Origin: Pedobacter gandavensis
GTDB lineage: Bacteria; Bacteroidota; Bacteroidia; Sphingobacteriales; Sphingobacteriaceae
Reading direction: 5' to 3'
Length of the DNA: 64,000 nt
Assembly: GCF_014172405.1 (NCBI RefSeq)
Contig: NZ_WNXC01000001.1
Coordinates: 1,550,001-1,614,000, forward strand
Made by a program: the position numbers and the translations under genes. Shown in pieces: positions 26,453-26,868 of the stretch (within the stretch, counting starts at the first letter, position 1; every line of letters begins with the position of its first letter). The notes beneath the pieces were generated by a model. That model was not told where the DNA came from, made no database searches, and saw nothing but the letters and a program-made list of their open reading frames with translations.

Positions 26453-26468
26453 CTTAGCTTTACATTTG
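26437..26468 (+). promoter_or_regulatory. Promoter of the metY-metX-hom operon
   Basis: TTTG (26437-26440), exactly 20 bases, then TACATTTG (26461-26468): a full match to the Bacteroidota -33/-7 pattern. Predicted RNA start is about 26474, giving a leader near 395 bases that contains the riboswitch and leader peptide. Confidence 0.75.
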
Positions 26469-26521
26469 GATTATTCTTAGCGAAAGCTATTCAAGTCATC
26501 ACCTCCTTAAATGCTGGTTTT

Positions 26522-26635
26522 GATTTATAAAGAAGTGGCGAGAGACAGGCTCTTTGACCCACTGGCAACCCTCCCAAAATGGAGAAGGTGCCAATTCCTG
26601 ACCGGTTCGCATGGTGCGTTCTGGAAAGATAAATT
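26522..26635 (+). ncRNA. SAM-I riboswitch aptamer
   Basis: Conserved SAM-I pieces occur in order: a P1 5' strand (26522-26528), AGAGACAGGCTC, the P3 region CTGGCAACCCTCC, the diagnostic GGTGCCAATTCCTG, a P4 hairpin around 26600-26622, and GAAAGATAA closing P1 (26629-26635). It lies upstream of methionine biosynthesis genes, as expected. High SAM should lower expression. The expression platform is unusual because a small Cys/Met-rich reading frame starts seven bases after P1. Confidence 0.92.
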
Positions 26636-26641
26636 AAGATA

Positions 26642-26725
26642 ATGAAAACAGTAAAAATTACATCCGATTCTTTTAATTATTGTGGTAAGCAGCGTACAAT
26701 GTGTATGTGCTGTTGCATGCGATAA
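26642..26725 (+). CDS. Predicted Cys/Met-rich leader peptide (27 residues)
   Basis: ATG at 26642, stop TAA at 26723-26725. The peptide ends Thr-Met-Cys-Met-Cys-Cys-Cys-Met-Arg: five Cys (14, 21, 23-25) and four Met (1, 20, 22, 26) in 27 residues, packed just before the stop. It starts seven bases after the SAM aptamer and 143 bases before metY. Such codon clustering is the hallmark of ribosome-mediated attenuation. Cysteine is a sulfur donor and methionine the product of this pathway. Downstream RNA can form a hairpin at 26800-26825. Not homologous to any named leader I know. Confidence 0.72.
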   Translation: MKTVKITSDSFNYCGKQRTMCMCCCMR

Positions 26726-26797
26726 ATTCAAAAATCTTCCTTTTGCATTCTTGATCCATCCGGAAGGCCTCCATCGAGGTACGCTATACCCCTATAT

Positions 26798-26825
26798 CCA
26801 ATCCTGTTTTTTATTCAGGATCGGA
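26798..26825 (+). promoter_or_regulatory. Hairpin in the metY leader after the leader peptide
   Basis: A stem with one mismatch: CCAATCCTG pairs with CAGGATCGG across a T-rich loop. The 5' TTGATCC near 26751 could compete for the same GGATC. It may be part of the attenuation platform; there is no T-run directly after the stem, so it is not a simple terminator. Confidence 0.4.
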
Positions 26826-26868
26826 AAGCCACAAAAAACCTAGATATCAACCACTTAAAAGAAAACAC

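Follow-up and report, generated by a model that had tools for sequence, protein, structure and literature searches.

A conserved metY leader in Pedobacter that joins a SAM-I aptamer to a predicted Cys/Met-codon leader peptide

Described leader systems and the Pedobacter locus

Amino-acid leader-peptide attenuation is textbook knowledge for Proteobacteria. Leaders that take two signals have been described too: those of Salmonella mgtA and mgtC combine a sensor RNA with a Pro-codon leader ORF, which in mgtA is itself part of the sensing RNA, and Bacillus clausii metE carries a SAM and AdoCbl tandem. In the Bacteroidota, the Bacteroid-trp motif is a Trp-codon leader attenuator of tryptophan genes. 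Poly-Cys leader peptides of actinobacterial cys operons are reportedly the subject of a 2020 study by Canestrari and colleagues.

In 2010, going by the accessible part of one report, Proteobacteria and Actinobacteria were the only groups in which leader peptides had been demonstrated, and a new prediction was made for Firmicutes (PMC2965389). Cys-codon leaders were found upstream of actinobacterial cys operons, with no clear terminators in the portion of the paper at hand (Seliverstov et al. 2005, PMC1262725), and excerpts of a later study record Cys-rich uORFs in mycobacteria (Shell et al. 2015, PMC4633059). The uORFC-8-2 motif of Rhodobacterales cysS places two Cys codons in a hairpin and is predicted, in the available text, to act by Cys-tRNA attenuation (PMC8632094). 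For the Bacteroidota themselves, partial sources list the Bacteroid-trp motif (RF01692) as a cis-regulatory RNA of Bacteroidetes (PMC2864571) and mention short ORFs of B. thetaiotaomicron that are reminiscent of leader peptides, though unproven (PMC7366714).

The leader described here precedes metY-metX-hom in a window of 64,000 nucleotides of Pedobacter gandavensis DNA (Table 1). Like the classical trp, his and ilv attenuators, it has a short ORF that carries regulatory codons close to its end, and some of its relatives also have an antiterminator behind these codons and an intrinsic terminator. Unlike those attenuators, the window's type of leader has no intrinsic terminator, is fused to an aptamer and has a predicted Cys/Met response for a metY operon. 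With the actinobacterial poly-Cys leaders it shares a run of Cys codons close to the stop and a position in front of a sulfur operon, and with those of Mycobacterium the lack of an obvious terminator, as far as the accessible descriptions go. The actinobacterial leaders differ in belonging to another phylum and to other genes (cys, cbs and cysA2, not metY), and the parts of their descriptions at hand mention neither a SAM aptamer nor a terminator-capable conserved hairpin. uORFC-8-2 differs in having an intrinsic terminator, two Cys codons and an aminoacyl-tRNA synthetase gene; no riboswitch is mentioned in the available part of its description. The mgtA, mgtC and B. clausii metE leaders likewise take two signals, but signals, genes and phyla are others, and the likeness is drawn from descriptions. 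No match to RF01692 was found in the window by cmscan.

The literature searched, in which few subscription papers were covered, holds no description of a metY Cys leader or of a fusion between a SAM-I aptamer and a Cys leader; the author of the earlier note knew of no described tandem of this kind in Bacteroidota. Cys-codon leaders as such are already known or predicted in Actinobacteria and Rhodobacterales; the search suggests that the present one is unreported.

The aptamer proposed in the earlier note is a full-length match to its Rfam model (cmscan; positions 1-108 of 108), with a score above the gathering threshold. Three SAM-I aptamers above the cut-off are present in this genome. Unlike the usual SAM-I (S-box) riboswitch, the window's aptamer has no terminator, and the leader ORF is the first thing behind P1: 6 nt lie between the aptamer end and the leader ATG, which is at +7 counted from that end. 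The product, MKTVKITSDSFNYCGKQRTMCMCCCMR-stop, has five Cys and four Met, counting the initiator, and a C-terminal MCMCCCMR, exactly as had been read before; the spacer between the leader stop and metY likewise has the 143 bases given earlier (26726-26868). TTG/TAnnTTTG is the Bacteroidota promoter consensus. The window has TAnnTTTG at 26461 and TTG at 26438. Across the genus, 60 of 88 leaders have TAnnTTTG at most 90 nt 5' of their aptamer; for the reverse strand the count is 4 of 88.

Downstream, the assignment to metY-metX-hom stands, with MetY and Hom above their cut-offs and MetX probable, its 341.6 bits lying under the TIGR01392 cut-off of 500. The closest named MetY relatives are those of Pedobacter sp. 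PLR and P. polysacchareus (both 97%). Directly 5' of the leader (25233-26348) is the gene for a second PLP enzyme, of cystathionine gamma-synthase type (PRK07811, 422.7 bits, under the cut-off of 513).

Table 1. Features of the metY leader and operon (positions in the window)
Feature	Position	Strand	Basis
Putative promoter, TTTG (26437-26440) and TACATTTG (26461-26468)	26437-26468	+	Motif match
SAM-I (S-box) riboswitch aptamer	26522-26635	+	RF00162, 73.1 bits, gathering 44.4
Predicted leader peptide ORF, 27 codons and stop	26642-26725	+	Open frame
Regulatory codon run Met-Cys-Met-Cys-Cys-Cys-Met	26699-26719	+	Exact MCCC tail in 67/89 Cys-filtered ORFs, including one unrelated ORF (G089)
Possible hairpin from Cys-run RNA, TGTATG with CATGCG	26702-26721	+	All six pairs possible in 66/85 leaders
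Conserved hairpin A, CTTCC (26736-26740) with GGAAG (26762-26766)	26736-26766	+	Paired in 85 sequences
Conserved hairpin B, CCTC with GAGG	26768-26779	+	Covariation
Conserved unpaired TACGC	26780-26784	+	34 aligned leaders
metY, O-acetylhomoserine sulfhydrylase	26869-28176	+	TIGR01326, 674.7 bits, cut-off 495.1
metX, homoserine O-acetyltransferase (probable)	28200-29258	+	TIGR01392, E 4.9e-102
hom, homoserine dehydrogenase	29266-30507	+	PRK06349, 312.9 bits, cut-off 205

Conservation of the leader within the genus

A search for MetY recovered it from 94 of 99 genomes of the genus, and 90 of the leaders were read, 89 of them with an aptamer core (G089 has none). In an unbiased test, which takes as start the first ATG that lies 38 nt or more behind the core, an ORF of 24-48 codons is opened in 89 of 89 leaders. 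At least two Cys lie within its last 12 codons in 88 of them, the exception, G039, ending in FCCSVQLMKNMCLGMY. The Cys/Met run is therefore kept in relatives that keep the aptamer, a check set in advance by the earlier note, both here and in 32 of 37 named loci (see below). The Cys codons in the middle of the run vary (CMCFGM, CMCIRM, CMCSRI, CMCHGM), and the last 10 codons of 88 Cys-filtered genus ORFs hold 2-5 Cys. Length and N-terminus of the ORF drift, and pN/pS is 0.36-0.78 in three length groups, only moderately below 1. Small Cys-rich peptides frequently bind metals, so the frame could encode a functional protein with metal- or thiol-binding properties that leads the operon by chance. 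Against this, the ORF drifts in N-terminus and length but holds a constant position with respect to the aptamer and hairpin A, and we give this alternative hardly any credence.

The geometry of the run is indeed strict. From its Met to the CTTCC strand of hairpin A the distance is 28-32 nt in 85 leaders (mean 30.2, sd 0.84), whereas in the same leaders the ATG-to-run distance varies from 57 to 147 nt. The stop codon is shifted in eight leaders, by one codon upstream in three and by two downstream in five; their run-to-hairpin distance is 29-32 nt and their stop-to-hairpin distance 6-16 nt. A fixed distance between run and hairpin A is the geometry required if a stalled ribosome is read by that hairpin.

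The earlier note spoke of alternative hairpins behind the leader stop. This description has to be given up: hairpins A and B are adjacent and compatible. Since they are not mutually exclusive, a classical switch is not visible here. With the two hairpins taken together, 99.0% of the cells are paired, 118 cells are changed on both sides and the covariation score is 0.359, in an alignment that was itself fitted to the model. None of 500 shuffles matched any of these three measures, and the scores of slid structures were much lower; two of the five measures used were no better than shuffles (both-side-changed pairs, 50/500; pair types, 289/500). The covariation resides mostly in hairpin B, where four of five pairs are changed on both sides and 98.1% of cells are paired. 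Hairpin A is nearly invariant, with all cells paired in 85 distinct sequences and a single pair going from C-G to G-U in three. Behind hairpin B, the TA of TACGC is invariant in the 34 aligned leaders, the following C and G are at 90% or more and the last C is lower; no pairing partner for TACG(C) was found.

A covariance model of hairpins A and B (R1) matches the window at 26729-26784 and has matches in 55 of 60 genomes of the genus. Of 201 genomes of the order, 79 have matches, 72 of them belonging to the window's genus. The strong matches are at metY leaders, and weak extra ones have E values of 4e-6 to 1e-2; two genomes with such weak matches, G160 and G181, gave neither a recognisable metY start nor an aptamer. 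Scanning the downstream hairpins against Rfam at a permissive E-value gave, besides SAM, only two chance microRNA matches. A pattern search for Cys codons in the window's own genome was unspecific (80 matches). Taken together, its parts, its open frame, its fixed spacings and the covariation, mainly of hairpin B, make the element well supported as a conserved one.

The Cys-run RNA may itself fold, and the six pairs of this hairpin are all possible in 66 of 85 leaders. It might be argued that TGTATGTGCTGTTGCATACA is conserved for RNA structure only, with the Cys codons as a by-product, and the third positions of these codons are indeed conserved too. However, the other 19 leaders each lack one or more of the six pairs, pN/pS is below 1, all 89 leaders keep an open frame of variable length, and in other families the RNA differs while the Cys/Met codons persist. 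We hold a purely structural role to be very unlikely.

Two further pairings were considered. The earlier note had suggested that a partial pairing of GGAAAGAT (26623-26630) with ATCTTCC (26734-26740) could connect the aptamer and the leader peptide. Covariation does not uphold this bridge as a conserved link: where ATCTTCC is changed, in G054 and G085, hairpin A is compensated and the aptamer is not, the bridge energy is weaker (-2.4 and -1.3), and literal GGAAAGAT occurs in 21 of 85 leaders. Its complementarity exceeds that of shuffles (-4.33 against -1.79 kcal/mol on average), yet the 3' end of the aptamer resembles the SAM-I consensus anyway. The bridge may be a minor link. By eye, the 3' strand of P1 can pair with an AT-rich stretch around the leader stop in several leaders, though not in that of the window; this pairing was set aside.

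Other SAM-I riboswitches of the genus have no such ORF. By the first-ATG test, a Cys-rich ORF follows 0 of 31 of them (the 30 best-scoring places and L003), which indicates that the Cys leader is specific to metY. The genes behind these riboswitches (L001 and similar) are those of a NifS-like protein (MRIYLDNAATTPL), of a protein of about 390 aa with a signal-like N-terminus, and metH.

The full-length aptamer, well above its cut-off, and the location of the ORF where an expression platform would be expected are what a plain SAM-I riboswitch would look like, one responding to SAM alone through translation or stability, with the short ORF as a spacer or relay and its Cys codons uninformative. 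We consider it unlikely, given the 31 riboswitches without such an ORF, the fixed distance of the run from hairpin A and the Cys/Met leaders that also precede metY where the aptamer is absent.

Leaders and terminators in other Bacteroidota

The Cys/Met leader is present as the earlier note claimed, but it is wider in extent, occurring in many families of the class. In 500-nt regions upstream of metY from other genera of the same class, searched for ATG ORFs of 8-70 codons, a short ORF with at least four Cys in 10 residues was found in 23 of 35 on the forward strand and in 0 of 35 on the reverse. For each of the 23, the observed Cys score was reached by none of 100 dinucleotide shuffles. Among Bacteroidota metY loci from named taxa, 64 of 80 are preceded by a Cys/Met-rich ORF, as against 0 of 80 on the reverse strand; loci labelled Pedobacter account for 23 of 27 and the remaining loci for 41 of 53. 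These loci overlap in part with the genome survey (L252 and G390, for example), so the surveys are not independent. Leader-bearing taxa include Mucilaginibacter, Sphingobacterium, Daejeonella, Chryseolinea, Pontibacter, Rufibacter, Haliscomenobacter and Lewinella.

Nine of the 16 negatives (L210, L218, L226, L232, L240, L241, L247, L264 and L274) still have a short ORF with 2-4 Cys among its last 14 residues. In L252 an extra gene follows the leader, the upstream region of L267 is only 131 nt long, and L249 and L275 have one Cys; no Cys leader was found in L220, L224 and L266. In Desertivirga arenae (L220) and Pedobacter sp. SYSU D00535 (L224), metY has neither aptamer nor leader. L252 and G390, probably one genome, have the aptamer and the Cys leader, then an extra short gene, then metY.

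The Rfam aptamer is present in 37 of 40 named loci scanned, 36 of the 37 not labelled Pedobacter. In 32 of the 37, the ORF that starts at the first ATG behind it is no longer than 70 codons and has at least three Cys among its last 14; L275 and L249 keep the aptamer and have one Cys there. Counted from the end of the aptamer, the leader ATG falls at +8 to +12 in 29 of the 37.

The codon run varies between genera (CICMCCCC, CCCCCC, CMCCCCACCC, CMCMCCMCM, CCMCICCPCC, MMCCCCCCMP), and from this it follows that codon identity is kept, not the RNA or the peptide sequence. The variation bears on another possibility, namely that a nascent Cys-Met-Cys-Cys chain arrests the ribosome and senses a metal, the redox state or a metabolite instead of tRNA charging. 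CMCCC[MI] is strongly kept within the genus, which speaks for an arrest peptide. Such runs as CCCCCC, CMCMCCMCM, CCMCICCPCC and MMCCCCCCMP have no peptide motif in common, however, and in the relatives with terminators the antiterminators lie directly behind the codons. We regard an arrest peptide as distinctly improbable.

A later sample comprised 53 regions chosen from the results of searches; one of these searches matched 218 genomes. The ORF was found in only 8 of 16 regions of the same class (reverse strand, 0) and in 6 of 37 of other classes (reverse, 3). In the other classes the ORF count alone is weak; the case rests on antiterminators. The SAM regular expression used for this sample recovered 21 of 37 known aptamers and 0 of 12 negatives, so its SAM counts are lower bounds. 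Leaders without an aptamer have more Met per 14 residues (3.9; 16 leaders, 10 genomes) than those with one (1.3; 33 leaders), in a set picked by hand after looking; later leaders are mixed in this respect (L314, one Met and no aptamer; L285, four Met with the aptamer present).

In the genus, the criteria for terminator-like sites gave no intrinsic terminator in the stretch from the leader stop to metY (0/89); nor was a sequestered start codon found in the genus, or a mutually exclusive antiterminator in the window's type of leader. Terminator-like sites lie within 200 nt before metY in 4 of the 80 named loci (L257, L263, L268 and the aptamer-less L266). Where a family has no aptamer at metY, the Cys/Met leader is followed by an intrinsic terminator, and the segment right behind the codons is complementary to the terminator's 5' arm. 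When this complementarity was compared with shuffles at 21 terminator-like sites, no more than 9 of 200 were as good at five sites, all of them behind Cys/Met leaders (first site of G447, 0; G453, 0 and 2; G329, 5; first site of G295, 9). Other Cys/Met leaders have no good antiterminator behind them (second site of G447, 36; second of G295, 40; G300, 44; G250, 176, each of 200). The first sites behind leaders in a second set of 11 loci gave 0 (L328), 1 (L345), 3 (L313 and L322), 6 (L282), 8 (L352) and 17 (L353) of 200. Since aptamer-less relatives have a Cys/Met leader, an antiterminator and a terminator, codon-dependent attenuation is the natural reading. Of the attenuation reading in the earlier note, this part is supported, by these relatives and by the conserved run; the pairing of GGAAAGAT with ATCTTCC is not.

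The modules occur in several orders in the phylum: a leader alone; two leaders in series (G447, G453, G329, G295 and L282); a leader followed by SAM-I, both with terminators; SAM-I and its terminator ahead of a leader; and the fused order with no visible intrinsic terminator, found in the window's lineage and in others. In L345, L353 and L352, of other classes, a Met/Cys leader and terminator are followed by a SAM-I aptamer, which by eye has its own terminator, and then by metY. In L316 (family f35), a SAM-I aptamer and terminator come first, then the leader MMCCCCCCMP (end MMCCCCCCMPFGA), then metY.

Seven Cytophagales loci (L248, L251, L255, L260, L263, L272 and L279) have a different conserved element between the Cys run and metY. 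By eye, it consists of a CAACA segment able to pair with the Cys codons and a hairpin-capable CTAGCGTACGACC..GGTTAYGGCTA. Scans of these loci gave no Rfam match to it.

Proposed mechanism and its meaning

It is probable, in our judgement, that the leader is a two-signal attenuator in which attenuation by Cys-tRNA, and perhaps Met-tRNA, is combined with a SAM aptamer that gates translation of the leader. We infer that the 27-codon ORF is translated and that its terminal Met-Cys-Met-Cys-Cys-Cys-Met codons would make the ribosome pause when charged tRNA-Cys is short, a shortage of charged tRNA-Met contributing to a lesser degree. The position of the ribosome, with the run about 30 nt upstream of hairpin A, would then decide the downstream RNA structure. 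A stalled ribosome would leave hairpin A free; one that has moved on to the stop codon would reach its 5' strand. In the relatives, antiterminators lie behind the codons, and the likely sign of the response is therefore that a Cys/Met stall frees the antiterminator and shortage turns the operon on. For the window's genus this sign is likely by analogy with the terminator-type relatives.

The aptamer is separated from the leader ATG by 6 nt and lacks its own terminator. The likeliest connection between the two sensors is therefore that P1, when SAM is bound, prevents initiation at the leader ORF. In classical attenuators, mutation of the leader's start codon leaves the operon off. Similarly, a leader that is not translated would presumably keep the metY operon off. 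The net logic would be that expression of metY-metX-hom requires low SAM together with low Cys/Met charging. That the aptamer gates initiation of the ORF, which would make this one RNA a coincidence detector of SAM and charged tRNA-Cys, seems to us evenly poised between right and wrong.

Since none of the 89 leaders of the window's type has an intrinsic terminator, the output step is one that we infer. At a guess, it may be Rho-dependent termination. The only hint, a weak one, is the excess of C over G before metY, 20.5 vs 8.9% in the genus, as compared with 16.1 vs 15.2% in 40 ORF upstream regions of the window, 8 of which equal or exceed the window's own metY region.

A Cys/Met leader precedes metY in many families of Bacteroidota, and many lineages fuse it to a SAM-I aptamer that has no visible expression platform. 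If the gating is true, this aptamer would be a small, genetically simple riboswitch that acts through translation of a leader ORF. Shine-Dalgarno initiation is mostly absent from Bacteroidota; the leader would offer a direct way to test the coupling of translation and gene control in this phylum. On this mechanism, if it is true, two sulfur signals would be read by a single short RNA before the metY operon comes on.
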